Shown: piece after piece, positions 4,344 to 63,993 of the stretch
How positions within the stretch are numbered: position 1 is the stretch's first letter
Layout: every line of letters starts with the position of its first letter
From: Streptantibioticus cattleyicolor NRRL 8057 = DSM 46488
Lineage (GTDB): Bacteria > Actinomycetota > Actinomycetes > Streptomycetales > Streptomycetaceae
Direction: 5' to 3'
Length of the DNA: 64,000 nt
Assembly: GCF_000240165.1 (NCBI RefSeq)
Contig: NC_017585.1
Coordinates: 1,240,001 to 1,304,000, forward strand
Program-made: the position numbers and the translations under genes
Notes under the pieces: generated by a model
Database searches by the model: none
The model's input: the letters and a program-made list of their open reading frames with translations, nothing else
Told to the model about the DNA's origin: nothing

Positions 4344-4423
4344 GCCCGTACCGCACCATCGAGGCGCGGGCCGGTGGCGTGCCGCTCCGCTCGGCAGACC
4401 CGGGTTCGCGGTGAGGAGACGGC

Positions 4424-5857: not shown

Positions 5858-6374
5858 CCACCGCATGGTCGAGCAGCTGTTCCGCGACCACCACGCGGCG
5901 GCCTCCGACGAGCAGCGCCGCGCCGTGGTCGAACTCCTCGTCCGCGAACTGTCCAAGCACGCGGCCCTGGAGGAACTGCTGGTCTACCCGCTGGCCAGGC
6001 GGGTGACCCCGGACGGCGGGGCGGAGATCGACCGCCACCTGCTGGAACACCTGGACGTCAAACGCACCCTGTACGCCCTCGACCGCCTCCCGGTCGGCAG
6101 CGGCAAGGAGGAGGCGCTGATGTCCACCCTGCGCGGCGAGGTCGAGGAGCACGTGCGCGAGGAGGAATCCGTGCTGCTGCCACGGCTGGCCGACGCGCTC
6201 GGGCCCCAGGACCTGGACGACCTGGGCCAGGTGCTCGACAAGGCGAAGCAGACCGCGCCCACCCGTCCGCACCCGCACGCCCCCGACGAGCCGCCGGCGC
6301 TGACCCTGGCCGCTCCGGTGGCCGCGCTCTACGACCGGCTCCGCGACCGGCTGCAAGGGAGGCCCCGCACATGA
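5829..6374 (+). CDS. Hemerythrin (HHE) domain protein in hydrogenase operon
   Basis: 181 residues. HHE motifs are plain: LLKHDHRMVEQLFRDHH at residue 6, LSKHAALEELLVYPL near 41, EHLDVKRTLYALD near 77 and VEEHVREEESVLLPRL near 105. The C-terminal tail TAPTRPHPHAPDEPP matches that of the minus-strand hemerythrin at 104-667. It overlaps the preceding gene by 29 bases, and its stop overlaps the small-subunit ATG (ATGA at 6371), which implies tight translational coupling to the hydrogenase. Hemerythrin domains bind O2 at a di-iron centre; oxygen scavenging or sensing at the hydrogenase is inferred. Confidence 0.92.
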   Translation: MDAVELLKHDHRMVEQLFRDHHAAASDEQRRAVVELLVRELSKHAALEELLVYPLARRVTPDGGAEIDRHLLEHLDVKRTLYALDRLPVGSGKEEALMSTLRGEVEEHVREEESVLLPRLADALGPQDLDDLGQVLDKAKQTAPTRPHPHAPDEPPALTLAAPVAALYDRLRDRLQGRPRT

Positions 6375-46436: not shown

Positions 46437-46452
46437 TTTGGTCTGGACCATC
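46437..46452 (+). promoter_or_regulatory. DasR-responsive element (dre) before the chitinase gene
   Basis: TTTGGTCTGGACCATC contains TGGTCTGGACCA (46439-46450), one base from the core of the dre consensus A(G/C)TGGTCTAGACCA(G/C)T. It overlaps the space after a TTGACG -35 box (46425-46430), a position suited to repression. DasR is the N-acetylglucosamine-responsive repressor that controls chitinase genes in Streptomyces. Confidence 0.8.
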
Positions 46453-46536
46453 TTGGGGTGGCCGCGCGGTGGATCGGCCCTACAGCTCGGTGGCGCGGCC
46501 GTGCCCTCGCCACCCTCTCCTACGGGGAGGCTCGCC

Positions 46537-48190: not shown

Positions 48191-48679
48191 TCACACCGGC
48201 GCCGGCCGGTCCGAGGCGGGCCACACGTACGGCAGGTCGGGCGGGACGCCGGGGAACCGGGGCCCGTAGTGATCGGGGTCCTTGCGCACCAGCGCCGACT
48301 GATGACTGCGGTGGAACGCGGGCAGGCCCAGCCACGGCGGCAGCTCACCGGCCGACGCCAACTCCGCCTGACCGCGCGGCTCCGGATCCGTGGCCGCCCC
48401 CGCGCCGAGCCCCGCCACCAAGGAGACCGCGCAGGTGTCCCGGCGCCCGGCCGCCGTCCACACCCGGCAGACCTCCAGCCCGTAGGCGACCAGCGCCTCC
48501 TCGTACCCCGCCCACATCCGCACCGCCGGATGGTGCCGCCAGCCGTACCCCGGCACCGTCAGCCCGCGCAGGATCTGCAACGCCTCCACCCGCTGCTTGC
48601 CCAGCCGCCGGGCGTCGAGGACGGCCGCCGACGCCGAGAAGTCCGGATAGGGCAGAAACGTCTGCACGACCCCCATCAT
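48191..48679 (-). CDS. MSMEG_6728-family protein (pyrimidine-dimer glycosylase-like)
   Basis: 162 residues from ATG 48679 (ATG 48676 and GTG 48664 also possible). MQTFLPYPDF-type start (VVQTFLPYPDFSASAAVLDA), then RLGKQRVEALQILRGL, YGWRHHPAVRMWAGYEEAL and CRVWTAAGRRDTC. The family name comes from the mycobacterial prototype; resemblance to T4 endonuclease V-like glycosylases is at fold level. Function unproven. Confidence 0.8.
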   Translation of the reverse strand: MMGVVQTFLPYPDFSASAAVLDARRLGKQRVEALQILRGLTVPGYGWRHHPAVRMWAGYEEALVAYGLEVCRVWTAAGRRDTCAVSLVAGLGAGAATDPEPRGQAELASAGELPPWLGLPAFHRSHQSALVRKDPDHYGPRFPGVPPDLPYVWPASDRPAPV

Positions 48680-48744
48680 GCCCCGCACCGCACACCACGC
48701 GCCCACCGCCGTTGCGCCGGGCGGGTGGGCGGCGGCCACCACCG

Positions 48745-49602
48745 TCACCGGTCGTCCAGCACCGCCCGCGCCCGCCACGCCGCCACGGCGGCGGCCGGAT
48801 CCTCGGCGTACCAGTGGAAGACCCGGGCCTCGGCCGGTCTGCCCAACGGCCGTACGAAGCCGACCGGTCGCGTCAGCTCCACGGTCACCGTCGTCTGGCC
48901 GCCCACGCCCAGACGCGTGACGCCGTCCGCGTCCACCGCCCCCATCCGGCCACCGGAGAACCGGCGGTCGACGCGCACCGAGGCCACGTACCGGGCCGGT
49001 ATGCGGACGTCCACCAGCACCCCGTACCGCAGCCGCAGCGACCCGTCGGCGCCCACCACGTGCGGACGCACCACGCACGACAGCTGCAGGGCGAACACGA
49101 AGTACACCGCCCACACGTCGACGACCAGGGTGACGGCGTGCACCACCGGATCCGGGACCAGCCAGGCCAGCGCCACCGCCTCCACGACGGAGACGAACCC
49201 CAGGCCGTACATCACGTCCCGCTGCGCGGCGGCGTACGGCACCGCCGCGTCGCCCTCGCCCACCCCGTGCGGTCCACGGCCGGAGAAGCGGCGCAACACG
49301 CTGGTGAACAGGGCGAGTTCATGGGACAGCAGTCTGCGCGCGAGCGCCGGGACGGTGTCGGCGACGGCGGCGCGCAGCGCCGCGCGCCGGTCCGGGCGGT
49401 CCCGGTGGTGGCGCCGGTAGTCGAGCGCGAAGAGCGTCATCGCGGCCACCACGACGGCGCACACCAGCGACTCCACGACGACCCGCACCACCGGCGTCAC
49501 CCGCGCCCCGCTCAGCAGGCACACCACCAGCACCGCCTCGCCGGGCAGCGTCACGGCGAACGACCACCGCACCGCCTTGCGCAGTACCCGCACCGCGCTC
49601 AC
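48745..49602 (-). CDS. Membrane protein co-transcribed with MerR regulator
   Basis: 285 residues from GTG 49602, which overlaps the merR stop (GTGA). Four membrane helices (residues 10-30, 40-62, 133-150, 155-176), then a beta-rich soluble C-terminal domain with YVASVRVDRRFSGGRMGAVD and VTVELTRPVGFVRPLG. No name recognised. The tight coupling to the MerR regulator suggests that it is the regulator's effector gene, for example a drug- or stress-responsive membrane protein. Confidence 0.8.
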   Translation of the reverse strand: MSAVRVLRKAVRWSFAVTLPGEAVLVVCLLSGARVTPVVRVVVESLVCAVVVAAMTLFALDYRRHHRDRPDRRAALRAAVADTVPALARRLLSHELALFTSVLRRFSGRGPHGVGEGDAAVPYAAAQRDVMYGLGFVSVVEAVALAWLVPDPVVHAVTLVVDVWAVYFVFALQLSCVVRPHVVGADGSLRLRYGVLVDVRIPARYVASVRVDRRFSGGRMGAVDADGVTRLGVGGQTTVTVELTRPVGFVRPLGRPAEARVFHWYAEDPAAAVAAWRARAVLDDR

Positions 49603-50440: not shown

Positions 50441-50737
50441 CCGGCGCGTCCGGTTCGCGCCAACCGGCGTCTCCGGCGGGTGGGTTGGGGATGGACGGCG
50501 TGGCGGGCCGGGCCGGCCGGGGCGGATCTGACATGCCCAGGCTGGAGCAATGGCCGGTGCGGGCCCCCGGCCGCATTACGCTGAGCGCATCGACCAAGCC
50601 CCGCCGGGAGTTCTTGTGTCCAGGACGTGTCAGCGGATCCACGAGGGCTCCCCCGGGGGCCCAGGGCGTCCCACGGTGTCCCCGCCCGGCCGTCCGGGGG
50701 ACCCGCCCGCGTCGCCGTGCCGCCGTCGGAGCCGGTG

Positions 50738-51928
50738 GTGAGGTGGCCCGGGCGGCGGGTCGACGGGGCGGCCGGTCCGGGCATCGGGGCGCCGGCCCGG
50801 CCCGCCTGGATCCGCTGGCTGCCGGCGCTCTACGTCGCCGCGGTGCTGGCGCTGGAACCGGTCACCCCGGTGCAGTGGCCGGTCAGCTTCCTGCTCATCG
50901 CCCTCCCGGTGGCGGCGGCCTTCGCCCACGGGCCGGTCACGGTCGCCGCCCTCACCCTCTTCGCCATCGGCTTCCAGGCCCTGCTGGCCGGCACCCCGTG
51001 CTGCGCCGGCCGCTCGGTGGGGTACGTGGGCGAGCGCCACTACGTGGCCGCCTACATCTCCACCGCCCTGGTCGGCGTGCTCGGCACCATCCTCGCCGCC
51101 CACCAGGAACGCCGGGAACGCACCCTGGCCACCGTGCGCTCCGTCGCCGAGACCGCGCAGCGCGTACTGCTGCGTCCGGTACCGGGCCGCCTCGGCCGGA
51201 TCGCCGTGGAGACGCTCTACCTGTCGGCCGCCGCCGAGGCGCGGATCGGCGGCGACCTGTACGAGGCGGTGCCCACCGCGTACGGGGTACGCCTGCTCAT
51301 CGGTGACGTGCGGGGCAAGGGGCTGGTCGCGGTGGAGACGGCCGCGCTGCTGCTCGGTGCCTTCCGGGAGGCCGCCCACGACGAGCCCGACCTGGCCCGG
51401 GTCGCCCACCGGGCCGAGCGCAGCATGCGCCGCAGGGCCGCCCAACTGCCCGGCAGCGATGTCGCCGAACGCTTCGTCACCGCGGTCTTCGCCGAGGTCC
51501 CCGACGACGAACCCGTGGTGCGCATCGTCAACTGCGGTCACCCGCCGCCCCTGCTCATCAGCGGCGGATCGGTCACCGAACTGCATTCGACCGACCCCGC
51601 GCCGCCCCTCAACCTCGGCGTCCTCTTCGGCGACGACTACCAGGTGGACACCGAGCCGTTCCGGGCCGGCGACCAACTGCTGCTGTACACCGACGGCGTG
51701 ACCGAGACCCGCGACCGCGCCGGTGCCTTCTATCCCCTGCTGGAACGCGTCGGCCGGTGGACCGCCCTGCCGCCCCGGGAACTCCTCGACCGCCTCCACG
51801 AGGACCTGCTCACCTACAGCGAGGCCAGGCTGGACGACGACACCGCCGCTCTCGCCGCCTACCGGCTCCCCGAGGAGCCGGGCGGCCCACCGCACCCTCA
51901 CGGGGACCGCCCGGCCGGTCAGAACTGA
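50738..51928 (+). CDS. SpoIIE-type PP2C phosphatase, membrane-anchored (paralogue)
   Basis: 396 residues from GTG 50738 (GGAG 6 bases upstream; earlier in-frame starts exist). Three or four N-terminal membrane helices, then a SpoIIE PP2C domain: EARIGGDLYEAV near 170, LLIGDVRGKGLVAVETAALLL near 187, and LLLYTDGVTETRDRAGAFYPL near 312. Same layout and strong similarity to the protein at 30462, including RGKGL and NCGHPxP(Y/P)LL. A partner-switching phosphatase is inferred. The 335 bases before it hold the MerR promoter at the left and nothing else I can name. Confidence 0.88.
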   Translation: MRWPGRRVDGAAGPGIGAPARPAWIRWLPALYVAAVLALEPVTPVQWPVSFLLIALPVAAAFAHGPVTVAALTLFAIGFQALLAGTPCCAGRSVGYVGERHYVAAYISTALVGVLGTILAAHQERRERTLATVRSVAETAQRVLLRPVPGRLGRIAVETLYLSAAAEARIGGDLYEAVPTAYGVRLLIGDVRGKGLVAVETAALLLGAFREAAHDEPDLARVAHRAERSMRRRAAQLPGSDVAERFVTAVFAEVPDDEPVVRIVNCGHPPPLLISGGSVTELHSTDPAPPLNLGVLFGDDYQVDTEPFRAGDQLLLYTDGVTETRDRAGAFYPLLERVGRWTALPPRELLDRLHEDLLTYSEARLDDDTAALAAYRLPEEPGGPPHPHGDRPAGQN

Positions 51929-51935
51929 CGTTTTG

Positions 51936-52835
51936 TCAGCGACACGCCTGGTAGACCGAGTTGTCGAGGTCCTTGGCGAAGAAGACACCGTTGAAGTCGT
52001 TGGCGTTGTCCTTGGGGCAGAACAGCGACGGGGTCATCAGCGGCTTGGAGGGGTCGTTGTCGACGTGGTCGCCCTGGTACTCGGCGTTGAAGACCGGCTT
52101 GCCGGCGTTCACGTACTGGTCGAGTCCGTAGGCGCCGTTGTCGTCGGTGGTGCACTCGGAGAACTGGTTGCATTCCTCGTTGAGGGCGGCGTCGAAGTAC
52201 GGCAGGAGCTTGGGGATCTGCTCGTTGTCGTTCTTCTGGAGCACGCTCATGCCGCGCTGGTGGGTGTCGTTGGCGAGCGTGCTGTTGAAGTAGAGCTGGT
52301 CGTCCTTGGTGATCTTGAACGAGGTGTTGTTGGCGTACCCGTCGATGTTGTCCAGCTCGACCGCGTCGAACCCCTTCTGCCGGCACATGTCCAGCCGGGC
52401 GTCCATGATCTTGCGCAGCGCGCTGTCGGACTTCTGGATCTCCCGGACGTCAAGCCACTTCTCCCCCTTCCAGCCGTTGGAGTTGCCCAGTACGGCGGCG
52501 GGGAACTGCTTGGCGTCCGGACGCCAGTCCTCGTAGGAGCCGGCCGAGATGTAGCAGACCGCCTTGGTGCCCTGGGCGTGCAGCTTGGCGACCGTGTCCG
52601 CCGGGGTGTTGAAGCCGTCGACGTCGTACATGTCGACCTTGCGGAACGTGGTGGGCACCGAGCGCAGCACCCAGTCCCACGATGTCTTCACGTCGGGGTG
52701 CCAACACCCCGCGCAGGCGACGGGCTTGGGCATGGCCGGGGTGGCCGCCGACGCGTGCGGGGCCAGCGATATCGCCAGCAGGGCCGCGGTGGCGCCCGCG
52801 GTCAGCAGCCGGCCGGTACGACGGGAAACGGACAT
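51936..52835 (-). CDS. Secreted GH114 endo-alpha-1,4-polygalactosaminidase
   Basis: 299 residues from ATG 52835 (GGAGGT upstream). Signal peptide SRRTGRLLTAGATAALLAIS, cleavage near SAATPA. The mature part is a GH114 barrel: VDMYDVDGFNTPADTVAKLH near residue 68, KAVCYISAGSYEDWRPDAKQ near 91, GEKWLDVREIQKSDSALRKI near 123, and DMCRQKGFDAVELDNIDGY near 149, with the acidic catalytic residues. Enzymes of this family cut alpha-1,4-galactosamine polymers such as those in Aspergillus galactosaminogalactan. It lies at the end of the aldolase/SIS transcription unit of a sugar-utilisation locus, giving that locus a likely polymer substrate. Confidence 0.9.
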   Translation of the reverse strand: MSVSRRTGRLLTAGATAALLAISLAPHASAATPAMPKPVACAGCWHPDVKTSWDWVLRSVPTTFRKVDMYDVDGFNTPADTVAKLHAQGTKAVCYISAGSYEDWRPDAKQFPAAVLGNSNGWKGEKWLDVREIQKSDSALRKIMDARLDMCRQKGFDAVELDNIDGYANNTSFKITKDDQLYFNSTLANDTHQRGMSVLQKNDNEQIPKLLPYFDAALNEECNQFSECTTDDNGAYGLDQYVNAGKPVFNAEYQGDHVDNDPSKPLMTPSLFCPKDNANDFNGVFFAKDLDNSVYQACR

Positions 52836-52926
52836 GGGATACCTCCGATGGGTCGGGACGAGCGCGCGCGAGCGCGCACGCACCACGGGGCGGAAACCGC
52901 CACGGGTACGGGCCTGGGGGGTGGGT

Positions 52927-53895
52927 TCAGTCGAGGGCGCCGGAGCGTCGGCGGGCGGCTTCCCCGGTGATGGTGCCGTGGTGCGGGCCCCGCGTCGACG
53001 TGTGGTGTCCGGACGGACAGGAAACTCTGCCTTCACGTCGCAGCAGCGCGTCGGCGCTGCCGGCGGCCCCCAGCACACCGAGGATCCGGGCCACCTCCTC
53101 GTCCATCGCCGCCCGCGCCGGTGCCAGGTAGCGGCGCGGATCGACCATGGCGGGCGCGTCCGCCAGCGCGGCGCGCACGGCGGCGGAGAAGACGCGGTTG
53201 AGGTGGGTGGAGAGGTTGACCTTGGTCATGCCGTTGCGCACCGCGTCGGCGATCATCGCGTCCGGCACCCCGGAGGAGCCGTGCAGCACCAGCGGAACGG
53301 GCACCACGGAGCCGAGGGTGGCGATCAGCTCCAGGTCCAGTACGGCGTCGCGCGAGGTCATGGCGTGCGAGGAGCCGACCGCGACGGCGAGCGCGTCGAC
53401 CCCGGTGCCGGAGACGAACCGCGGCGCCTCGTCGGGGTCGGTGCGCACCCCGGGTGCGTGCGCGCCGTCCTTCCCGCCGATCTCCCCGAGTTCGGCCTCC
53501 ACCCACACCCCGCGCTCCTGGCACCACGCGGTGATCTCCCGGGTGGTCTCCATGTTCTCCCGCCACGGCAGCCGCGAGCCGTCGTACATCACCGAGCTGA
53601 ACCCCAGCGCCACGGCCTCCTTGACCAGCTCGGTGTCGGTGGCGTGGTCCAGGTGGAGCGCGGCGGGGGCCGGGCCCGCCTCGGCCGCCGCCAGCACCGC
53701 CTCGGCCAGCGGCGCCAGCGCCCCGTGGTACCGCACGGCGTTCTCGCTGATCTGCACGATCACCGCCGAGCCGGCCCGGGCGGCACCGGCCAGCACCGCC
53801 TCGGCCTGCTCCAGCAACGCCACGTTGAAGGCACCGGCGCCGTGGCCGTCGCGTACCGCGGCGGAGACGATCGTCGCGGTCGGGATCAGGGGCAT
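52927..53895 (-). CDS. Class II aldolase (tagatose/fructose-bisphosphate type)
   Basis: 322 residues from ATG 53895 (AGGAG upstream). Zn-dependent class II aldolase: AGAFNVALLEQAEAVLAGA at residue 20, the metal site HLDHATDTELVKEAV near 80, YDGSRLPWREN near 104, EAELGEIGGKDGA near 133, and LHGSSGVPDAMI near 208. GatY/KbaY/AgaY-type enzymes cleave tagatose-1,6-bisphosphate to DHAP and glyceraldehyde-3-phosphate. The last 30 residues (from GRVSCPS) are unusual for the family. Member of the polygalactosamine locus; downstream of the SIS gene. Confidence 0.9.
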   Translation of the reverse strand: MPLIPTATIVSAAVRDGHGAGAFNVALLEQAEAVLAGAARAGSAVIVQISENAVRYHGALAPLAEAVLAAAEAGPAPAALHLDHATDTELVKEAVALGFSSVMYDGSRLPWRENMETTREITAWCQERGVWVEAELGEIGGKDGAHAPGVRTDPDEAPRFVSGTGVDALAVAVGSSHAMTSRDAVLDLELIATLGSVVPVPLVLHGSSGVPDAMIADAVRNGMTKVNLSTHLNRVFSAAVRAALADAPAMVDPRRYLAPARAAMDEEVARILGVLGAAGSADALLRREGRVSCPSGHHTSTRGPHHGTITGEAARRRSGALD

Positions 53896-53983
53896 GAGGA
53901 CTCCTCATGGTGGGCGTCCGGCCGGGGAGGGCGCCCCGGACGGACACGGTGGCGGGTGGGGCCGGCCGCGTCGGGCGCGGGCG

Positions 53984-54874
53984 TCACTCGGCGCTCTCCA
54001 GGATCACCGAGCGGGTGAGGTTCGGCGGGTTGTCGACGTCCCGGTCGACGGAACGGGCCAGTTCGACCGCGACCCGCTGCGCCTTGATCAGCTCGGCCAG
54101 CGGGTCCAGGGTGCCGACCACCAAGTGGGCGCCGGTGCGCAGGATCTGCCGGTCCAGGCCCTCCGGGAGTGGGCCGAAGCTCCACACCGCGCGCCCCGCC
54201 GCGGCGACGCCGATCGGCCCGTGCCGGTATTCCATGGGCGGGTACGCCTCGGTCCACCAGGCGGCGGCCTCGCGGACCTTCAACGCGGCCTCCAGCGCGA
54301 CCCCGCCCGCCCATCCCTCGCCGAGGAAGGTGATCTGGCCGGCCGAGCAGAGCATCGGGTCGAGTTCGTCCCGTACCGCGAACTCGGCGTCGGCCACGGC
54401 CGCCGACAGGTCCTCGCCGAGGTGGGCGCGGAGCAGCACGAGCTGGGTGGTGGGGAAGCGGGTCTGCACCACGGACTGCTCGTCGGCGTAGGTCAGTTCC
54501 ACCACGTCGTCGGCGAACCGGGCGGCGGGCGAGCCGGTGACCGCGGTGATGACGGTGGTGCGCGCGTTGCCCTGGACCTTCTCCAGGGCGTCGATCACCT
54601 CGGTGGTGGTGCCGGAACGGGTCAGCGCGACCACCCGGTCGAAAGTGCGGGAGGACGGCAGCGGCTGGGACGCCGGGAACGCCTCGGTGTGGCCGGCGCC
54701 GGCCGCCTCACGCAGCGCCGCGTACGACTGGGCCATGAACCACGAGGTGCCGCAGCCGATCACCGCGACCCGCTCACCGGGTGCGGGCAGCGCCGGTGCG
54801 TGCTTCGGCAGTTCGTCGAGTACCCGTCGCCAGCACTCGGGCTGGGACGCGATCTCCTGGGCGGTGCGGGACAT
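53984..54874 (-). CDS. SIS-domain sugar isomerase/deaminase (AgaS/GlmS-like)
   Basis: 296 residues from ATG 54874 (AAGGAG upstream). Two SIS domains: VAVIGCGTSWFMAQSYAALR near residue 37 and VVALTRSGTTTEVIDALEK near 81; the second domain carries EGWAGGVALEAALKVREAAA. The closest known activities are AgaS galactosamine-6-phosphate deaminase/isomerase and GlmS-type isomerases. Divergent from the ABC importer and upstream of the aldolase, consistent with turning GalN-6-P into tagatose-6-P. Confidence 0.9.
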   Translation of the reverse strand: MSRTAQEIASQPECWRRVLDELPKHAPALPAPGERVAVIGCGTSWFMAQSYAALREAAGAGHTEAFPASQPLPSSRTFDRVVALTRSGTTTEVIDALEKVQGNARTTVITAVTGSPAARFADDVVELTYADEQSVVQTRFPTTQLVLLRAHLGEDLSAAVADAEFAVRDELDPMLCSAGQITFLGEGWAGGVALEAALKVREAAAWWTEAYPPMEYRHGPIGVAAAGRAVWSFGPLPEGLDRQILRTGAHLVVGTLDPLAELIKAQRVAVELARSVDRDVDNPPNLTRSVILESAE

Positions 54875-55206
54875 GGGATGACTCCTTCTACTGCACGGGC
54901 TGCTCACTTGTGCTCAACTTTGCGCGTCAACGTAGCAGAGATGAGCAACGCAGGGCAGTGGTCGCGGCGTAGCGGATCTCTCCCGTCGGGTGACAGCCCG
55001 GACGCAAGCCGTGAAAACAACAGACGGTTGCCGGAAGCTCTCAATCGAATGCTTGTTATTGAGCAGTTCATTTGCTAGACATACGGCCATCCGATCAACC
55101 TCGATCAGTCGGCCGCGACGCGGAGGGGCTGCCGCCGCCCGCCCGGCCCGGCGTCTTCGCGCCCCACCGCGCGCGACCTCCCCGACGGTCTGCAAGGAGT
55201 CCGCCC
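54875..55206. promoter_or_regulatory. Divergent control region of sugar locus
   Basis: 332 bases between the SIS gene and the binding-protein gene. A plus-strand promoter is likely: TTGTTA (55053-55058), 17 bases, TAGACA (55076-55081). The motif TTGAGCA or its near-variant recurs at 54911-54917 (reverse), 54942-54948 (TGAGCAA) and 55059-55065, within the promoter. CTTTGCGCG (54918-54926) also occurs before the deoR gene (60808-60816). These are candidate sites for the DeoR regulator. Confidence 0.6.
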
Positions 55207-56541
55207 ATGGCCCATACGCGAGGTGCACCCGTTGGACCCGCGCGGCGCGACGTGCTGCGTCTCGGCGCTTCCGCCGCCGTCGCGGCGGGGCTGACCGCCA
55301 CGGTGAGCGGCTGCTCCGCCGCCATGGACGACGGGGTGGGCCCGGACGGCCGGGTCACCATCGAGCTGTGGCACGGCCAGGTCGACTCCTCCAAGGTGGC
55401 CGTCGAGGCGATGGTGCGCGAATTCAACCGCACCCACCCGAAGATCCGCGTCGACGCCGGCGGGGGAGGGGCGGTCGCCGACGACATGCTGCAGAAGGTC
55501 ACCGCCGCGCTCGCGGCCGGCGCCTACCCGGACGTCGCCTACATCTACGGCTCCGACCTGCCCAACATCGCCCGCAGCCCACAGGTGGTCGACCTCACCT
55601 CATGGACCGGGCACGGCGCCACCCCCTGGCAGCAGTACTGGCCGGCCGCCCGCGAGGCGGTCACCGTCAACAAGCACGTCCGCGCCCTGCCCGCGCTGAT
55701 CGACTCGCTCGCCGTCGTCTACAACAAGAAGCTCTTCCGGCAGGCCGGCGTCCCTTACCCCAAGGCGGGCTGGACCTGGGACGAGTTCGTGGAGACCGCC
55801 CGCCGGCTCACCGACCCCGGGCACGGTGTCTTCGGCACCGGCTGGCCGGGGGCCGGCGACGAGGACACCACCTGGCGGCTGTGGCCGATGATCTGGGACC
55901 TCGGCGGGGAGATCGTCGGCCCCGACGGACGCAGCATCGGCTTCGCCGACCAAGGCGTCCGCGCCCTGCAGACCCTCGCCGACCTCACCCGCGACCACTG
56001 CGTCTACATCGACTCCAAACCCGGCGGCGAGCTGATGTACCAGGTCTTCACCGGCGGCCGGCTCGCCATGGTGGCCACCGGCCCGTGGAAGCTCCCCGAC
56101 ATCATCGACGCCAAGGTCGACTACGGCGTCGTACCGCTGCCCACCTACAGCGGACGTCCGCTGACCATCTCCGGCCCCGACACCTGGACGATCTTCGACA
56201 ACGGTCCGGCCCGTTCCCGGGCCGCCAAGGAGTTCGTCAGCTGGCTCATCCAGCCCGACCAGGACGTACGCCTGGACCTCACGGCCGGCACCCTGCCGCT
56301 CAGCCGGATCAGCGCCGCCCGGCCCGCCTGGCTGCGCGAGGTGGAGAGGACGACGGGCCTGGAGGTGTTCACCAAGGCACTCGACACCGCCCGGGTACGC
56401 CCGGTCATACCGGCCTACCCGCAGATATCCCAGGCGCTCGGCCAGGCGATCATCTCCGTGCTGATCGGCAGCCGCACCCCGGCCCAGGCCATCCGGGCCT
56501 GCGCCTCGACCGCCAACGCGGCCCTGCGGATACCGAGATGA
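55207..56541 (+). CDS. ABC sugar transporter binding lipoprotein
   Basis: 444 residues from ATG 55207 (AAGGAG upstream). Tat/lipoprotein-like signal: RRDVLRLGASAAVAAGLTATV, lipobox VSGC at residue 34-37. Extracellular solute-binding family 1: TIELWHGQVDSSKVAVEAMV, TVNKHVRALPALIDSLAVVYN and GRLAMVATGPWKLPDI. It would capture the oligosaccharide released outside. First gene of the plus-strand operon (spacing 11 bases to the first permease). Confidence 0.93.
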   Translation: MAHTRGAPVGPARRDVLRLGASAAVAAGLTATVSGCSAAMDDGVGPDGRVTIELWHGQVDSSKVAVEAMVREFNRTHPKIRVDAGGGGAVADDMLQKVTAALAAGAYPDVAYIYGSDLPNIARSPQVVDLTSWTGHGATPWQQYWPAAREAVTVNKHVRALPALIDSLAVVYNKKLFRQAGVPYPKAGWTWDEFVETARRLTDPGHGVFGTGWPGAGDEDTTWRLWPMIWDLGGEIVGPDGRSIGFADQGVRALQTLADLTRDHCVYIDSKPGGELMYQVFTGGRLAMVATGPWKLPDIIDAKVDYGVVPLPTYSGRPLTISGPDTWTIFDNGPARSRAAKEFVSWLIQPDQDVRLDLTAGTLPLSRISAARPAWLREVERTTGLEVFTKALDTARVRPVIPAYPQISQALGQAIISVLIGSRTPAQAIRACASTANAALRIPR

Positions 56542-56552
56542 GGAGGACAACC

Positions 56553-57500
56553 GTGTCCCAACGCCCCCGGTCGTTCGCCCCCCGGCCCGAGGTGGTCACG
56601 GCCGCCGCCAACCGGCGCCGGGCCCGCCGGGAGTCGGCCACCGCCTGGGCCTTCCTCAGCCCCTCGGTCCTGATCATCATCGGTCTCGGCGTCGTCCCCA
56701 TCATCTGGTCGATGCTGCTCTCCTTCAAGGCCGACGACCTGGTCACCCCCAGCCGCTGGGTGGGGCTGGACAACTACCGGGCGCTGGTCTCCGACCCCAA
56801 CTTCCACCAGGCGGTGGAGCACACCCTGGTGTACACCGCGCTCTACGTCCCGCTGAGCATCGTGGTGGGGCTGGCGATCGCCCTCGCGCTCAACCGCCGC
56901 ATCCGGCTGATCGGCGTCTACCGCACGCTGATGTTCGTCCCCTTCGTCATCTCCGCCGCCGCCCAGGGCGTGCTGTTCTCCTTCATCCTCGATCCGCAGT
57001 TCGGCGCCGCCAACTCCCTGCTGCACCGGCTCGGTCTGCCCGCCCAAGGGTTCTTCGGCAGCCCGCACCAGGCGCTCTACCTGCTGGTCGCCATCTCGCT
57101 GTGGAGCGGCACGGGCTTCTGCATCGTCATCTACCTCGCCGCCCTCCAGGACGTGCCCGCCGAACTCGTGGAGGCTGCCAGGCTGGACGGGGCCCGCGGA
57201 CCCACCATCCTGCGCCACGTCACCTGGCCGGCCATCACCCCGGTCACCGTCTTCCTGGTCCTGTGGCAGCTCATCCAATCGCTCCAGGTCTTCGACCTGG
57301 TGTACGTGACCACCAAGGGCGGCCCGCTGCAGTCGACCACGGTCGTCGTCTACTTCGTGTGGCAGCAGGCGTTCCAGGCGTTCACCGCGGGCTACGGAGC
57401 CGCCGCGGCCTACGTCCTGGCAGCCGCGCTGTTCGTGGTCGGCGGCCTGCTGCACCTGTTCCAGCGGCTGCGCAACCGGGCCGAAGGAGCCACCCGATGA
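56553..57500 (+). CDS. ABC sugar permease (MalF type)
   Basis: 315 residues from GTG 56553, 6 bases after AGGAGG (an ATG at 56538 overlapping the previous stop is a weaker choice). Six membrane helices; the EAA loop reads ELVEAARLDGARGPTILRHV near residue 209. One half of the importer pore; its stop overlaps the next start (ATGA at 57497). No ATPase is encoded here: Streptomyces sugar importers of this class share the MsiK ATPase. Confidence 0.93.
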   Translation: MSQRPRSFAPRPEVVTAAANRRRARRESATAWAFLSPSVLIIIGLGVVPIIWSMLLSFKADDLVTPSRWVGLDNYRALVSDPNFHQAVEHTLVYTALYVPLSIVVGLAIALALNRRIRLIGVYRTLMFVPFVISAAAQGVLFSFILDPQFGAANSLLHRLGLPAQGFFGSPHQALYLLVAISLWSGTGFCIVIYLAALQDVPAELVEAARLDGARGPTILRHVTWPAITPVTVFLVLWQLIQSLQVFDLVYVTTKGGPLQSTTVVVYFVWQQAFQAFTAGYGAAAAYVLAAALFVVGGLLHLFQRLRNRAEGATR

Positions 57501-58387
57501 CCGTCCAGACCGTGCGTTCCGTGACGCGGCGGGCCGCCGCCACCGACGTGCCGGCGCCCGGCCGGCGCCGCTTCAAGCTGCCGTTCAGCCCGTGGCACCT
57601 GCTGCTGGCGCCGCTCTCGCTGGGCTTCGCCGTCCCGTTGCTGTGGCTGGTGCTCAGCTCGTTCATGAGCAACTCGGAGATCAACCGGTTCCCGCCGGCG
57701 CTCTTCCCGCACGGCCTCCACCTCGGCGGCTACCGCTACGTGCTGGGCAACGCGATGTTCCCGCGCTGGTTCGCCAACTCCCTGATCGTCTCGGCGGTCG
57801 CGGTCCTGGGCAACCTGGTGCTCGGCTCGCTGGGCGGATACGCCTTCGCGCGGATGCGGTTCTTCGGCTCCCGGGCGCTGATGGGTCTGATGCTCGCCAC
57901 CATGGCGGTGCCGTTCCAGCTCACCATGATCCCGACGTTCCTGGTGATGAAGCAGTTCGGGCTGATCGACACCCTCGGCGCCCTGATCGTCCCGTCCCTG
58001 GTGACACCGTTCTCCGTCTTCCTGCTGCGCCAGTTCTTCCAGTCGCTCCCGCGTGAGCTGGAGGAGGCCGCCTGGATCGACGGGTGCTCGCGGCTGCGGG
58101 TGCTGGTCTCGGTGATCCTGCCGCTGGCCCGCCCGGCGCTGAGCACGGTGGCGGTGCTGACGTTCCTGAGCACCTGGAACGACCTGACCTGGCCGCTGAT
58201 CGCGGTCAACCACGACACCCAGTACACCCTGCAACTCGGGCTGACCACGTTCCAGGGCCAGCACCACACCCAGTGGGCCGCGGTGATGGCCGGGAACGTC
58301 ATCACCGTGCTGCCGGTCCTGCTGGCCTTCCTGCTGGCGCAGAAGGCGTTCATCCAGTCGCTGACCACCACCGGGCTCAAGGGGTAG
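57497..58387 (+). CDS. ABC sugar permease (MalG type)
   Basis: 296 residues. Six membrane helices; EAA loop ELEEAAWIDGCSRLRVLVSV near residue 188, and a C-terminal WPLIAVNHDTQYTLQLGL. Second half of the importer pore. Coupled by ATGA to the MalF-type gene; an 88-base gap with imperfect repeats separates it from the kinase gene. Confidence 0.95.
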   Translation: MTVQTVRSVTRRAAATDVPAPGRRRFKLPFSPWHLLLAPLSLGFAVPLLWLVLSSFMSNSEINRFPPALFPHGLHLGGYRYVLGNAMFPRWFANSLIVSAVAVLGNLVLGSLGGYAFARMRFFGSRALMGLMLATMAVPFQLTMIPTFLVMKQFGLIDTLGALIVPSLVTPFSVFLLRQFFQSLPRELEEAAWIDGCSRLRVLVSVILPLARPALSTVAVLTFLSTWNDLTWPLIAVNHDTQYTLQLGLTTFQGQHHTQWAAVMAGNVITVLPVLLAFLLAQKAFIQSLTTTGLKG

Positions 58388-58405
58388 CCGGCCCGCCCGG
58401 CACCG

Positions 58406-58460
58406 CCGCCCTGTCCGACACCGCCTTCCCGTCCGACACCGCCGTCCGCCCGATACCGCC
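58406..58460. repeat. Imperfect CCGCC-N-GTCCGACA repeats
   Basis: Three imperfect units of 15-18 bases, each beginning CCGCC and ending in (G)TCCGACA or CCGATA (58406-58420, 58421-58438, 58439-58455), plus CCGCC at 58456. They fill the gap between the MalG-type permease and the kinase; probably slippage, possibly an RNA structure. Confidence 0.5.
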
Positions 58461-58475
58461 GTGAGAGAAGACACC

Positions 58476-59456
58476 ATGTCCCCAGCCTTCGACCTCCTCG
58501 TGGTAGGCGACGTCAACCCTGATGTCGTCGTCGGCCCGCTGTCCGGTGAACTCGCCTTCGGGCAGCGGGAACAACTCGTCGACTCCGGCAGTCTGCTGCT
58601 CGGCGGATCGGCCGCCATCATGGCCTGCGGTGCCGCCCGGCTCGGGCTGCGGGTGGCGTTCGTCGGCCGGGTCGGTGACGACGCCGCCGGCGCGTTCGTC
58701 CGGGAACGCCTCGTCGAACGCGGCGTCGACGTCAGCGCGCTCACCGTCGACCCGTCGCTGCCGACACCGCTGACCACCATCGTGACCCGCGGTGCCGACC
58801 GGGCCATCCTCACCGCGCCGGGCTGCCTGCTGGCCACCGGGCCGCAGGACGTGCCGCCCGCACTGGTCGCCGACTGCCGCCATGTGCACGCCGCCTCGCT
58901 CTTCCTCATGCCGCACCTGGCCGGCGCGCTGGCCGGGCTCTTCCGCACCGCGCGGGAGCACGGCGCGACCACCTCGCTGGACACCAACGACGATCCCAGC
59001 GGCCGTTGGGACCCGTTGCTGCTGCGTGCGCTGCTGGAGGTCACCGACGTGCTGCTGCCCAACGCGGCCGAGGCCCGGGCCATCGCCGGCTCGCTGCGCG
59101 GTGTGACGGGACAGGACGCCCCTGCTGACCTGGCGGAGGTCTCCCGCGAACTGACCCGGCGCGGCCCGCTCGTCGTCATCAAGGACGGGGCCGACGGGGC
59201 GCTGGCGGACGACGGCACCGGGCCGATCCGTACCCCCGCCGACCGGATCGAGCCGGTGGACACCGTCGGCGCCGGGGACAGCTTCGACGCCGGTTTCATC
59301 GCGGCGATGCTGCGCGGTCTGGGCCTGCCGCGCGCGCTCGCCTTCGCCACCGCCTGCGGGTCGCTGTCCACCCGCGCCGCCGGTGGCACCACAGCGCAGG
59401 CCGACTGGGCCGAGGCGGCACTGGCCGCCGACACCACCGGAAGGAAAACCGCATGA
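58476..59456 (+). CDS. PfkB-family sugar kinase
   Basis: 326 residues from ATG 58476. PfkB features: LLVVGDVNPDVVVGPLSG at the start, LLGGSAAIMACGAARLGLRV near residue 45 (sugar site), and DTVGAGDSFDAGFIAAMLRG near 265 (ATP site with the catalytic Asp in GAGDSFD). Substrate specificity cannot be read from sequence. In this locus it could phosphorylate galactosamine at C6 or tagatose-6-phosphate at C1. Stop overlaps the GH4 start (ATGA at 59453). Confidence 0.93.
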   Translation: MSPAFDLLVVGDVNPDVVVGPLSGELAFGQREQLVDSGSLLLGGSAAIMACGAARLGLRVAFVGRVGDDAAGAFVRERLVERGVDVSALTVDPSLPTPLTTIVTRGADRAILTAPGCLLATGPQDVPPALVADCRHVHAASLFLMPHLAGALAGLFRTAREHGATTSLDTNDDPSGRWDPLLLRALLEVTDVLLPNAAEARAIAGSLRGVTGQDAPADLAEVSRELTRRGPLVVIKDGADGALADDGTGPIRTPADRIEPVDTVGAGDSFDAGFIAAMLRGLGLPRALAFATACGSLSTRAAGGTTAQADWAEAALAADTTGRKTA

Positions 59457-60763
59457 CCCACCCGAAGATCACCTTCATCGGGGCCGGCAGCGTCGTCTTC
59501 ACCCAAGGACTGCTCGCCGACATCTTCGCCTTCCCCGAACTCGGCGGCTGCCACGTCGCGTTGCACGACATCGACGCCGAACGCCTCAGCACGGCCGAGG
59601 CCGCCGCCCGCCGCATCGCCGAGTCCCGCGGCGTCAAGCCGGTGATCACCGCCCACCTGGACCGGCGGGCGGCGCTCGACGGTGCCGACTTCGTCGTCAA
59701 CATGGTGCAGGTCGGCATGAACGAGGCCACCCGCACCGACTTCGAGATCCCCGCCTCCTTCGGGCTGCGCCAGACCATCGGCGACACCCTCGGCGTCGGA
59801 GGCATCTTCCGCGCGCTGCGCACCTTCCCGCTGCTGCACGGGCTCGGCCACGACATGGCCGAGGTCTGCCCGGACGCCTGGCTGCTGAACTACACCAACC
59901 CGATGGTGATGAACGTCGGCTACCTGACCGCGGCCACCCCGCTGCGCCGGGTGGTCGGACTGTGCCACTCGGTGTACTGGACGATGCACGACCTGTCCGC
60001 GCTGGTCGGCGTACCCTTCGAGGAGGTCTCCTACCTCGCCGCCGGGGTCAACCACCAGTCGTGGGTGCTGCGTTTCGAAAGGGCCGGGCAGGACCTCTAC
60101 CCGCTGCTGGACCAGGCCATCGAGAAGGACCCGGAACTGCGCCGCCGGGTACGGGTCGACATGTACCGCCGGCTCGGCCACTACCCCACCGAGACCAGCG
60201 AGCACTCCTCCGAGTATGTCCCGTGGTACCTCCACCACGACAGCGAGGTGGAACGGCTGCGGCTGCCGATCGGGGAGTACCTGCGCATCGTCGAGGAGAA
60301 CCTCGCCCAGTACCACGCGACCCGTGACGCGCTCGACGCCGGCCACCCGCTGCCGGTCGAAGGCAGCATGGAGTACGCCCCGCAGATCATCCACAGCATC
60401 GTCACCGGCACCCCGCGCACCGTCTACGGCAACGTGCCCAACCGCGGTCTGGTGGACAACCTGCCGTCGGACGGCGTGGTGGAGGTGCCGTGCCTGGTCG
60501 ACTCGCTCGGCGTCCAGCCGACCCGGGTCGGCTCGCTGCCCCCGCAGTGTGCCGCGCTCAACCGCAACTACCTCGGGGTGACCGACCTGGTGGTGCGGGC
60601 GGCGGTGGAGGACGACCCGCGGCACATCAGGCACGCCGCCATGGCGGACCCGGCGACCGCCGCCACGCTGACCGTGGAGCAGATCTGGGAGTTGTGCGAC
60701 GCGATGGTGCGTGCCCACGGCGAGCGGCTCCAGCCGGGGCTGCGCGCGGTGCTGGGCCATTGA
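59453..60763 (+). CDS. GH4-family glycosidase (alpha-galactosidase MelA-like)
   Basis: 436 residues, NAD+- and Mn-dependent GH4 enzyme: Rossmann start ITFIGAGSVVFTQGLLADIF, LLNYTNPMVMNVGYL near residue 145, metal/catalytic motif VGLCHSVYWTMHDL near 169, and AGVNHQSWVLRFER near 199. GH4 hydrolyses by oxidation-elimination and accepts alpha-galactosides or phosphoglucosides. In the present locus the likely substrate is an alpha-galactosaminide oligomer; that is inference. Ends 89 bases before deoR. Confidence 0.93.
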   Translation: MTHPKITFIGAGSVVFTQGLLADIFAFPELGGCHVALHDIDAERLSTAEAAARRIAESRGVKPVITAHLDRRAALDGADFVVNMVQVGMNEATRTDFEIPASFGLRQTIGDTLGVGGIFRALRTFPLLHGLGHDMAEVCPDAWLLNYTNPMVMNVGYLTAATPLRRVVGLCHSVYWTMHDLSALVGVPFEEVSYLAAGVNHQSWVLRFERAGQDLYPLLDQAIEKDPELRRRVRVDMYRRLGHYPTETSEHSSEYVPWYLHHDSEVERLRLPIGEYLRIVEENLAQYHATRDALDAGHPLPVEGSMEYAPQIIHSIVTGTPRTVYGNVPNRGLVDNLPSDGVVEVPCLVDSLGVQPTRVGSLPPQCAALNRNYLGVTDLVVRAAVEDDPRHIRHAAMADPATAATLTVEQIWELCDAMVRAHGERLQPGLRAVLGH

Positions 60764-60810
60764 GCCACCCCCGGGCCACCCCCCGTCCCACCATGGCAAT
60801 TGTCCCTCTT

Positions 60811-60846
60811 TGCGCGAGTGATGCTCGCTCGCGCACGTTCTAGACT
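60811..60846 (+). promoter_or_regulatory. Candidate operator and leaderless promoter of deoR
   Basis: Inverted repeat TGCGCGAG (60811-60818) / CTCGCGCA (60828-60835), 9-base spacer, with a nested GCGAG-TGATG-CTCGC dyad. TAGACT at 60841-60846 is a -10 candidate that would start transcription at the ATG 60853, so the mRNA may be leaderless. Its upstream flank shares CTTTGCGCG with the 54875-55206 region. Confidence 0.6.
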
Positions 60847-60852
60847 GGCAAC

Positions 60853-61611
60853 ATGCTCAAAGCTGATCGACTAGCCCGTCTCCTCGAACACGTGGCCACT
60901 GAAGGCAGCGCGAACGTGCACGAGCTGGCTGATCTCCTCCAGGTCTCCAGCGCCACCGTCCGCCGTGACCTGCACGTCCTGCACGAGCAGGGTCTGGTGC
61001 GACGCACCCACGGCGGCGCGGTGACCGGAGCCCTCAGTCTGGAACTCCCGGTCCGGCACCGGCTCGGCACCCGCCAGGCCGAGAAGAGCCGGATCGCCGC
61101 CAAGGCCGCCGCCCTCGTCCCCGACGGGGCGGTCGTCGGGATGACCGGAGGCACCACGGTGACCGAGGTCGCCAGGGCCCTGAGCGACCGCACCGGCATC
61201 ACCGTGGTGACCAACGCCGTCAACATCGCCGCCGACCTGGTCATGCGGCGCGACATCCACCTCGTGGTGATCGGCGGCAACGCCCGCTCACAGAGCTACG
61301 AACTCGTCGGCCCCATCGCCGAACGCACCCTGGCCAACTACCACATCGACATCAGCTTCATCGGCGTCGACGGACTCAGCCCCGGCCAGGGATGCACCAC
61401 CCACGACGAGATGGAGGCCCACACCGACCGCGCGTTCCTGAGCAACAGCGACCGCACCGTCGTCGTGGCCGACAGCTCCAAGATCGGCAAGGCCACCTTC
61501 GCCCGCATCTGCCCGCTGAACGAGATCGACACCCTGGTGACCGACGACGGCGCCGACCCGGCCCAGCTGGAGGCGCTGCGCACCATGGGCATCGACGTCA
61601 TCGCCACCTGA
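60853..61611 (+). CDS. DeoR-family transcriptional regulator of the sugar locus
   Basis: 252 residues. N-terminal DeoR HTH: LADLLQVSSATVRRDLHVLH and RRTHGGAV, then the sugar-phosphate-sensing domain with MTGGTTVTEVARAL near 98 and IGGNARSQSYELVGPIAE near 142. AgaR and GatR of the galactosamine/galactitol pathways belong to the same family. Likely represses the divergent operons until a phosphosugar binds. Confidence 0.93.
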   Translation: MLKADRLARLLEHVATEGSANVHELADLLQVSSATVRRDLHVLHEQGLVRRTHGGAVTGALSLELPVRHRLGTRQAEKSRIAAKAAALVPDGAVVGMTGGTTVTEVARALSDRTGITVVTNAVNIAADLVMRRDIHLVVIGGNARSQSYELVGPIAERTLANYHIDISFIGVDGLSPGQGCTTHDEMEAHTDRAFLSNSDRTVVVADSSKIGKATFARICPLNEIDTLVTDDGADPAQLEALRTMGIDVIAT

Positions 61612-62760: not shown

Positions 62761-63993
62761 ATGCCTTCCTCCGAGCTGCGTCACCGTCCGCCCGAGTCGG
62801 CGAGACCCTCCGCACAGCATCCGCCGCCCCGGCCCCGCATCGCCCTCGCGGGACGCCTCGCCGCCCGCCTCGACCCGGCCGACCGCGCGGTGCTGGGGCT
62901 GTATCTGCTCACCCGGATATCCATCTGGGTCACCGCGTACGGCGTCCGTTACCTCTTCCCCGGCGACGCCGACTCCCACCGCGCCACCTCCCTCCTCGCC
63001 CCCTTCCAGCAGTGGGACTGGGAGCACTATCTGCACATCGCGCGGGACGGCTACTTCCCCGCGCGGACCGGCCCGTGGCTGCCCGGCTGGGACAACCGCG
63101 AAGCGTTCTTCCCCGGCTTCCCCTTCCTGCTGCGTGCCGTGCACACCGTCGTCCCGGACTGGACCGCGGCCGGGCTGCTGATCTCCCTGGTCGCCGGGGC
63201 CGTCGCCGTCCTGGCGTTGGCCCGGATCGCCCGGCTCCACCTGCCCGGCACCGACGCGGGCCGGCGCGCCGTGCTGTTCTTCCTCCTCTCGCCGTGCGCG
63301 ATCTTCCTGGCCGTCGGCTACACCGAGGCGCTCTTCCTCGCGTTCGGGCTGCCCGCCTGGCTCGCGGCCCAGCGGTACAAGTGGGCCCTCGCGGCCACGC
63401 TCACGGCGCTCGCCACCACCGTGCGCGTCAGCGGGCTCTTCGTCGCCGCCGCCATCGCCGTGCACTTCCTCGTCACCGCCCGCGCCCGCGCGCACTGGCG
63501 TCCGCTGCCATGGCTGGCGCTGCCCGCCGTCCCCGCGGCGCTCTACAGCTGGTACCTGCACGCGCACACCGGCGACTGGATGGCCTGGAAACATGCCCAG
63601 GAACGCGGGTGGTACCGCACCTTCCACACCCCTTGGGACGCCTGGGCCAACACCTGGCGCGCCGCCTTCGAGGGCTCCCAGGCCACCGGGTACGCCATCA
63701 TGTTCCGCGCCGAACTCCTCGCGGCGCTCGTCGGACTCCTCCTGCTCGTCGTCCTGCTGCGGCGGCGCCGCTGGGCCGAGGCCGTCTACATCGCCGTCAG
63801 CATGTGGGCACTGACCACCTCCTACTGGTTCATGTCCATCCCGCGCGCCACCCTGCTGTGGTGGCCGCTGTGGATCGGCCTCGCTGCCTGGAGCCTGCGC
63901 AGACCCCAGGTCAAGGCCGTCTACCTCTGCCTCGCCGCCCCCCTGACGACCGTCGTCGCCGTCACCTTCCTGTCGGGACGGTGGGCCGGCTGA
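62761..63993 (+). CDS. PIG-V-type membrane mannosyltransferase
   Basis: 410 residues, about eight to ten membrane helices. PIG-V/GPI mannosyltransferase II features: WDWEHYLHIARDGYF near residue 80, FFPGFPFLLRAVHTV near 112, SPCAIFLAVGYTEALFLAFG near 178 and TVRVSGLFVAAAIA near 220. In actinobacteria such proteins transfer mannose from polyprenyl phosphate onto cell-envelope or secreted molecules. Follows the ECF sigma/anti-sigma pair by 66 bases on the same strand; it ends 7 bases before the window. Confidence 0.88.
   Translation: MPSSELRHRPPESARPSAQHPPPRPRIALAGRLAARLDPADRAVLGLYLLTRISIWVTAYGVRYLFPGDADSHRATSLLAPFQQWDWEHYLHIARDGYFPARTGPWLPGWDNREAFFPGFPFLLRAVHTVVPDWTAAGLLISLVAGAVAVLALARIARLHLPGTDAGRRAVLFFLLSPCAIFLAVGYTEALFLAFGLPAWLAAQRYKWALAATLTALATTVRVSGLFVAAAIAVHFLVTARARAHWRPLPWLALPAVPAALYSWYLHAHTGDWMAWKHAQERGWYRTFHTPWDAWANTWRAAFEGSQATGYAIMFRAELLAALVGLLLLVVLLRRRRWAEAVYIAVSMWALTTSYWFMSIPRATLLWWPLWIGLAAWSLRRPQVKAVYLCLAAPLTTVVAVTFLSGRWAG

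Follow-up and report, generated by a model that had tools for sequence, protein, structure and literature searches.

A conserved GH114-importer-GH4 operon of Streptomycetaceae with a leader RNA and a probable role in the catabolism of galactosamine polymers

The biofilms of Aspergillus fumigatus and Pseudomonas aeruginosa contain galactosamine polymers. Among bacteria, endo-activity on a galactosamine polymer has been shown for a native enzyme of glycoside hydrolase family GH114, the polygalactosaminidase of Pseudomonas sp. 881, which the available part of PMC12054363 does not link to a transport or catabolic operon; a streptomycete, Streptomyces griseus, secretes an endo-alpha-1,4-galactosaminidase (Reissig et al. 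1975, cited in PMC12054363 and PMC7229062), for which the same part of PMC12054363 gives no available sequence and no linked operon or pathway. Attempts to obtain a soluble recombinant bacterial GH114 enzyme failed, and such protein remained elusive (PMC12054363). The Aga pathway (PMC4694137, PMC5583593) resembles the locus described here in its AgaS step to tagatose-6-phosphate, its class II aldolase and its DeoR/AgaR regulator, and agaS without agaA is given as a mark of the use of galactosamine (GalN) rather than N-acetylgalactosamine (GalNAc) (PMC5583593). No bacterial operon that consumes galactosamine polymers is described in the open-licence papers that we searched. Here we analyze a 64,000-nucleotide (nt) stretch of DNA from Streptantibioticus cattleyicolor NRRL 8057 = DSM 46488 (NC_017585.1, contig 1 of the 8.1-Mb genome G000, positions 1240001-1304000; hereinafter, the window), in which a gene for a secreted GH114 protein lies beside those for the binding protein and permeases of an ATP-binding cassette (ABC) importer, a PfkB-family kinase, a GH4 glycosidase, a SIS-domain protein, a class II aldolase and a DeoR-family regulator. 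We consider it likely that the two gene sets of this locus form a catabolic operon pair that acts on alpha-1,4-linked galactosamine polymers, be it fungal galactosaminogalactan, a bacterial Pel-like polysaccharide or a similar one.

Co-conservation of GH114 with an importer and GH4

The search set comprised 297 Streptomycetaceae genomes, the window's own being the only one returned for its genus. GH114 is encoded in 252 of these, mostly once or twice and at most five times in 5-12 Mb, and a GH4 protein with at least 75% identity to that of the window in 40, the window's counted. The neighborhoods of the 39 other GH4 genes were fetched along with one at 63% identity, and a search with the SIS protein contributed eight more loci. 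Among the 48 loci with GH4 at 74% identity or more, three (L087, L106 and L115) stop at a contig edge, which leaves 45 complete loci, the window included, each with a binding protein, two permeases and GH4 at at least 74% identity; no pair of their GH4 proteins reaches 98% identity. In 43 of the 45 complete loci, GH114 is encoded within 9 kb of GH4, and in 41 it stands directly ahead of the binding protein gene on the same strand; in L104, it is found just behind GH4 on the other strand and, in the window, at the aldolase end. With one or two GH114 genes per genome of this size, such proximity exceeds chance. An initial reading of the window from its letters alone (hereinafter, the sequence-only reading) had proposed co-conservation of GH114 with the importer and GH4 as a test, and this linkage turns out to be strongly kept.

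That reading also placed the SIS protein and the aldolase in the gene set. Both are indeed encoded in the window but are not constant partners of the operon: they occur together in nine loci (the window, L003, L004, L005, L006, L008, L019, L048 and L114), seven of which came from the SIS query, and in only two (the window and L114) of the 37 complete loci found through GH4 alone. The constant core consists of GH114, the binding protein, two permeases and GH4, usually with PfkB. In L004, from Streptomyces gossypii, the SIS and aldolase genes are followed by one for an Amidohydro_2 protein (11790-12863, plus strand).

The window GH114 protein matches PF03537 with 269.2 bits (cut-off 27; E 3e-80) and Aspergillus Ega3 (6oj1) with E 2.1e-44; its start was placed at MSVSRR (52835), and its signal peptide was judged by eye. 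Asp162, Glu220 and Trp122 align with Ega3 Asp189, Glu247 and Trp154, the numbering being placed by the 58-residue spacing of Asp and Glu, and these Ega3 residues are the nucleophile, the acid/base and the tryptophan of a mobile loop, respectively (PMC12054363). With the domain and the catalytic residues of the family in place, the protein is predicted to cleave galactosamine polymer.

Phylogenetic analysis of 85 GH114 proteins yielded two clades with full support. Clade A comprises the window protein and 17 further copies, retrieved as the best matches to it, the nearest of which (66%, in genome G057) is located elsewhere, without operon genes; clade B contains the 29 operon copies, out of 42, that were retained by extraction of open reading frames (ORFs) and so entered the tree. 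The window operon is thus an exception: it has neither a leader RNA of the kind described below nor a clade B GH114, its DeoR gene comes after GH4 at the far end, and its aldolase gene is followed by a clade A GH114. Because its GH114 belongs to the other clade and lies at the aldolase end, it looks like a local replacement, and the simplest account would be loss of the front end formed by GH114 and the RNA, with recruitment of another GH114 beside SIS and aldolase. Membership of the window GH114 in the operon, as first proposed, holds to the extent that GH114 is kept with the operon in relatives, and does not hold for the particular copy, which is not orthologous to theirs and occupies another position.

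The window genome encodes a second GH114, a solitary, lipoprotein-like member of clade B at 540 kb (L123 9302-10747, minus strand), which has no leader RNA and is neighbored by a DeoR regulator gene (36% to the window's) and an ORF that resembles alcohol dehydrogenase by eye. In L214, a GH114 domain is fused to fibronectin-III and CBM2 domains (4274-5992, plus strand), with a leader RNA ahead and, about 1.2 kb further downstream, another GH114 of clade B.

The leader RNA and the control of the operon

Ahead of clade B GH114 genes, a stretch of approximately 95 nt is better conserved than its flanks. A covariance model was built from 31 copies chosen by an 11-base pattern; 47 columns of their alignment are invariant, about 11 of these being fixed by construction through that pattern. 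The leader RNA was detected in all 44 complete operons other than the window's (47 copies, 56-98 bits, 16 of them outside the model set). Three operons (L104, L117 and L118) have two copies each, ahead of GH114 and of the binding protein, and the two that lack GH114 (L088 and L113) have one, ahead of the binding protein. Among genomes, it is present in 39 of the 39 that bear GH4, the window's left aside, vs 10 of the 257 others. The 72 copies found altogether precede GH114 (63), the binding protein (five), a NagK-like kinase (one), a GH4 remnant (one) or nothing recognized (two, one at a contig end and one degenerate), and in 69 of them the Shine-Dalgarno sequence GGAG follows after 6-13 nt.

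In the window, where every position was scored with filters off, there is no copy (best 11.6 bits, E 1.6), nor is there one in the remainder of its genome; 71 general SIS loci gave one sub-threshold match (19 bits), and 17 loci of clade A GH114 gave two (19.2 and 18.5 bits). Among 20 picked loci of clade B GH114 in operon-free genomes, one (L182) has the RNA, and the family search revealed further lone clade B genes that carry it, so the RNA is not bound to the operon. A search at class level detected it in 5 of 394 genomes, which belong to a single genus and had all been picked up by the family search; an Amycolatopsis copy lies in L013, one of the loci from the SIS search. In L209 (8570-8662, minus strand), the RNA runs straight into a C-terminal remnant of GH4, and in L220 (4281-4377, plus strand), a weak copy (42.7 bits) is followed by letters that resemble a GH4 remnant by eye; these two RNAs are, perhaps, scars of lost operons.

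RNAalifold predicts a three-way junction with stem P1 (GGUACGCCC/GGGG-CGUACC), stem P2 (CCGG/CCGG plus a variable outer hairpin) and stem P3 (CGCC-GGA/UCC-GGCG). In a scripted test (MAFFT did not align the stem) on 65 of 70 distinct sequences, the 5 unparsed ones being dropped, the outer P2 hairpin forms on average 4.29 of 5 pairs vs 3.60 +/- 0.08 when its halves are swapped between species, a value reached by 0 of 500 swaps, with the stem ends optimized alike in data and swaps and with relatedness uncorrected. Pair 2 is CG in 37 sequences, GC in 16 and UA in 6, and pair 4 is GC in 46 and AU in 15; this stem clearly covaries. The outer stem of P3 is weaker, with 5 of 500 swaps reaching the observed value at fixed ends and 0 of 500 at free ends. 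The inner stems are paired in 99.7% of cells and contain two pairs with double changes, a number reached by 26 of 500 shuffles, so that they say little. Folding of five single leaders gave z-scores of -3.38, -2.36, -0.73 (L099), -2.07 and -2.54, and the consensus fold is the minimum-energy structure in one of them (L005). A hidden reading frame was considered and rejected given that the lengths of the element fall into all three residues modulo 3. Rfam 15 (4227 families) gave no match at gathering score in five RNA-bearing loci or the window, and for two leaders searched at E<=10, the matches were weak and far under the gathering scores (best E 0.28). Open-licence papers, supplements aside, were also searched for a galactosamine riboswitch, and none was retrieved.

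At the DNA level, two patterns, both picked after inspection of the data, occur upstream of the RNA: TTGAC-N16-19-TNNNNT, 55-68 nt upstream in 67 of 71 cases vs 7 of 1420 random stretches, and TTGAGCA, within 300 nt of 17 of the 47 operon RNAs vs 84 of 2350 random stretches. The former is similar to the -35 and -10 elements that have been reported in S. avermitilis (PMC8780764), and its near-fixed distance places the leader RNA, probably, near the start of the transcript. TTGAGCA-type motifs are present also between the SIS and binding protein genes of the window, and we infer that their owner is the DeoR regulator, which among the models listed scores best on AgaR (NF040755; 211, failing the cut-off of 260). 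A plain promoter and terminator scan of the window locus yielded nothing.

Taken as a whole, the leader RNA is a candidate amino-sugar riboswitch. Conceivably, it represents a new riboswitch class that senses a metabolite of the galactosamine pathway (GalN, galactosamine-6-phosphate [GalN-6-P] or one closely related to them) and regulates how the hydrolase, the importer and the galactosamine kinase are translated, and that the window lineage lost with the original GH114 before another was recruited; we advance this specific scenario tentatively, as it falls somewhat short of an even chance. A protein-binding or purely structural element of the 5' untranslated region, with no small molecule involved, comes just below an even chance. 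Control may already be exerted through the DeoR regulator and the TTGAGCA sites, a ligand is not known, variation in the inner stems is too low for a test, the consensus fold is the minimum in a single leader of five, and L099 folds no better than its shuffles. Such an element is less readily reconciled with the 47 invariant columns, even discounting those fixed by the search pattern, the covarying outer P2 stem, the near-fixed spacing to both the promoter and the Shine-Dalgarno sequence, the doubling of the RNA in three operons and its presence ahead of a kinase gene.

Substrate, direction of flow and kinase

From protein families and gene neighborhoods, we infer the following substrates and direction of flow. 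The secreted GH114 would cut the polymer, and the binding protein with the two permeases would import the oligomers, powered by an ATPase encoded elsewhere. The cytosolic GH4 would then remove alpha-galactosaminyl and/or alpha-galactosyl units, PfkB would convert galactosamine to GalN-6-P, and the SIS protein would deaminate and isomerize GalN-6-P to tagatose-6-phosphate. The second phosphate would come from an unlinked enzyme of the phosphofructokinase type, and the resulting tagatose-1,6-bisphosphate would be split by the class II aldolase. A DeoR/AgaR-like repressor may act at the TTGAGCA sites, and in the sister operons, the leader RNA may add a second, probably translational, control. As the target, Aspergillus galactosaminogalactan, bacterial Pel and the organism's own polymer are equally allowed.

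An own polymer could also be the substrate of a biosynthesis or remodeling locus, in which GH114 would process the galactosamine exopolymer of the organism, as do Ega3 and the enzymes of bacterial Agd3-GH114 operons, with the other genes serving salvage. Bacterial operons of an Agd3 deacetylase, a glycosyltransferase and GH114 have been described, galactosamine polysaccharides have been reported in Streptomyces walls (both PMC7229062), and a PIG-V-type mannosyltransferase domain protein is encoded approximately 1.1 kb past the DeoR gene (window 62761-63993, plus strand), the sole glycosyltransferase domain seen nearby. The proteins encoded in 51936-61611, however, include no glycosyltransferase or deacetylase domain (sister loci were not profile-searched for these), and the locus is that of an importer with a cytosolic-type glycosidase and a kinase, which makes biosynthesis very improbable. 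The claim of the sequence-only reading that no deacetylase is present is borne out by profile searches for the locus and does not extend to the genome, which encodes NagA elsewhere.

The strongest single hint on the sugar comes from L118, in a genome (G274) with no window-type SIS or PfkB at E<=1e-60: here, the genes for GH114, the binding protein, two permeases and GH4 stand next to those for a NagK-like BcrAD_BadFG kinase and for a protein that resembles AgaS (483 bits against a cut-off of 529.2). That one operon is served by two different pairs of enzymes points to galactosamine and its 6-phosphate. Furthermore, nine of the 74 loci supplied by the SIS search (L009-L082, in part on short contigs, with family checks on samples) combine SIS with a ROK kinase, a PfkB of the 1-PFK/LacC subfamily, a class II aldolase (on the other strand in L067) and NagA, a layout that would be expected of a GalNAc pathway. 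The galactosamine branch of the sequence-only reading draws support from L118 and from these nine loci. All 32 SIS loci from operon-bearing genomes and G078 (L142-L173) also have the aldolase.

A different sugar would be involved if the operon took up alpha-galactosides of the melibiose/raffinose type, GH4 being a plain alpha-galactosidase and GH114 trimming a galactose-containing polymer to release such units. The window GH4 passes the alpha-galactosidase model NF011657 (586.5, cut-off 486), the CHSV motif, a mark of alpha-galactosidases, is present in 47 of 47 operon GH4 proteins, and galactose is a part of fungal galactosaminogalactan, so that the conserved GH4, by family an alpha-galactosidase, would also suit the galactose units of that polymer. 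This option is nevertheless improbable: in the great majority of the complete loci (41 of 45), the gene directly ahead of that for the binding protein encodes GH114, a family whose characterized members cleave galactosamine polymers, AgaS-like and NagK-like genes flank one sister operon, SIS and aldolase are in nine loci, and the proteins of the window locus include no galactokinase (the search for Leloir genes did not extend to the sister loci).

Several observations weigh against galactosamine polymer catabolism by this locus. Two complete operons, L088 and L113, lack GH114, and a DeoR gene is found in only 18 of the 44 complete loci other than the window, always divergent at the front; TTGAGCA precedes only 2 of the 24 non-operon RNAs. 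On the AgaS model TIGR02815, the window SIS protein scores 30 bits (cut-off 529.2), and the window aldolase fails the tagatose-bisphosphate aldolase model TIGR01858 (203.6, cut-off 443.55), passing, among the models listed, TIGR00167 alone (general ketose-bisphosphate aldolase; 225.4, cut-off 215.6). SIS is encoded in 274 of the 297 genomes, most of which lack the operon, and thus has uses beyond this polymer; GH4, with its score above the alpha-galactosidase cut-off, may also act on alpha-galactosides such as melibiose. Finally, the 17 other clade A GH114 contexts fetched have no operon gene nearby, and so the tie of the window GH114 to the operon rests on position in one genome.

The sequence-only reading took PfkB for the tagatose-6-phosphate kinase, an assignment that we would rather reverse. 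The window protein has GGSAAIMA where the kinases of other SIS clusters have GGKGVNVA, fails TIGR03168 (1-PFK/LacC subfamily; 73.6, cut-off 216.4) and scores best on ribokinase-like models, with LacC not among the families listed for it; two 1-PFK/LacC-subfamily kinases from other SIS clusters pass TIGR03168 and reach 108 and 173 bits on LacC (cut-off 409.55). Across the 40 GH4-bearing genomes, SIS is encoded in 27 of the 27 that are positive for PfkB, the seven without SIS all lack PfkB (in one of them, G245, a PfkB with an internal deletion is found), and six without PfkB have SIS (one, G037, is a contig-edge fragment), but the genomes are related rather than independent, and kinship inflates the association. 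G093, which has no window-type PfkB, encodes a 73% relative of the L118 NagK-like kinase, with the leader RNA ahead of it and GH114 next door. The motif and the scores, the association with SIS and the NagK-like kinase favor PfkB as galactosamine kinase, which appears more likely than a role as tagatose-6-phosphate kinase; the missing kinase would be the second one, with tagatose-6-phosphate probably phosphorylated by an unlinked enzyme. The converse, in which PfkB phosphorylates tagatose-6-phosphate and an unlinked hexosamine kinase acts on galactosamine, is unlikely, if far from negligible: the PfkB family includes LacC, and a ROK kinase, 55% to that of the SIS clusters, adjoins NagA elsewhere in the genome, but the absence of GGKGVN and of a LacC listing, set beside SIS-cluster kinases that do pass TIGR03168, speaks against it, as does the NagK-like hexosamine kinase in both loci seen with another kinase. 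A large internal deletion affects the PfkB gene of L113 (10466-10963, minus strand), where the genome has no SIS and the operon no GH114; this operon is apparently in decay.

All genes named by the sequence-only reading are present as ORFs with Pfam matches (Table 1), its boundaries 51936-61611 agree with these ORFs, and its 91-base gap between aldolase and GH114 was recomputed with the same result. SIS, aldolase and GH114, separated by 88 and 91 bases, lie on the strand opposite to the importer genes; the SIS ORF has a possible upstream start at 54907. Overlaps of 4 bases between binding protein and permease 1, permease 1 and permease 2, and PfkB and GH4 resemble those of a translationally coupled operon.

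Table 1. Features of the window locus (positions are those of the window)
Feature	Position	Strand	Basis
Secreted GH114 endo-alpha-1,4-galactosaminidase (predicted), clade A, 299 aa	51936..52835	-	PF03537, Ega3 match, tree
Class II ketose-bisphosphate aldolase, proposed tagatose-1,6-bisphosphate aldolase	52927..53895	-	Pfam E 1.3e-82
SIS-domain protein, proposed galactosamine-6-phosphate deaminase/isomerase	53984..54874	-	Pfam E 2.7e-14; nearest models GlmS/GlmD
Divergent intergenic region, proposed DeoR operators TGCTCAA 54911 and TTGAGCA 55059	54875..55206	.	Motif; no leader RNA copy
Extracellular sugar-binding protein of ABC importer (longer ORF from 55072)	55207..56541	+	SBP_bac_1 E 1e-38
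ABC permease 1	56538..57500	+	BPD_transp_1
ABC permease 2	57497..58387	+	BPD_transp_1
PfkB-family kinase without GGKGVN motif, proposed galactosamine 6-kinase	58461..59456	+	PfkB E 9.5e-49
GH4 alpha-galactosidase-type protein with CHSV motif, proposed cytosolic alpha-galactosaminidase/alpha-galactosidase on imported oligomers	59453..60763	+	GH4 E 5.2e-56 and GH4 C-terminal domain
DeoR-family regulator, best model AgaR (under cut-off)	60853..61611	+	DeoR C-terminal domain E 1.3e-50

Nearby, a gene for a SpoIIE-type phosphatase (50627-51928, plus strand) is convergent with the GH114 gene, and an ORF at 48194-49114 (minus strand) has a pyrimidine dimer DNA glycosylase domain. The chitinase that had been put forward as a companion of the locus (46438-48156, plus strand), a GH18 protein that also has CBM2 and fibronectin-III domains, was rejected as a part of the conserved system because loci L001-L224 contain no match to it at E<=1e-12; looser settings gave one 30% match beside L114 and one in L214, to a protein with the common CBM2 and fibronectin-III domains.

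Comparison with known systems

The conserved operon names a likely enzyme set, with a candidate galactosamine kinase, a candidate alpha-galactosaminidase and an importer, and offers some forty GH114 orthologues to try for soluble protein, while the leader RNA makes RNA-based sensing of galactosamine in bacteria a directly testable question. The Streptomyces leader motifs dauA, livJ, pntA and asfR are likewise candidate cis-regulatory structured RNAs, found in, or mostly in, Streptomyces, and in the available part of their description are associated with other genes, namely, those for a STAS protein and a LIV-binding protein, pntA and asfR (PMC11109978).

A known enzyme close to the window GH114 is Aspergillus Ega3 (CAZy GH114; PDB 6oj1, 6ojb), which belongs to the same family and shares the catalytic Asp and Glu at a 58-residue spacing and the loop Trp. 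Ega3, however, is a membrane-bound fungal enzyme of polymer maturation, whereas the window GH114 is neighbored by genes of import and catabolism. With PelA (GH166) and Pel, the locus has in common an alpha-1,4-linked GalN/GalNAc polymer as the likely substrate, but PelA belongs to synthesis (PMC9135694, in the part available). Compared to the Aga pathway, the locus has no deacetylase AgaA/NagA, its SIS protein is far from the AgaS model and its PfkB is of another subtype, whereas ABC import, GH114 and GH4 are added.

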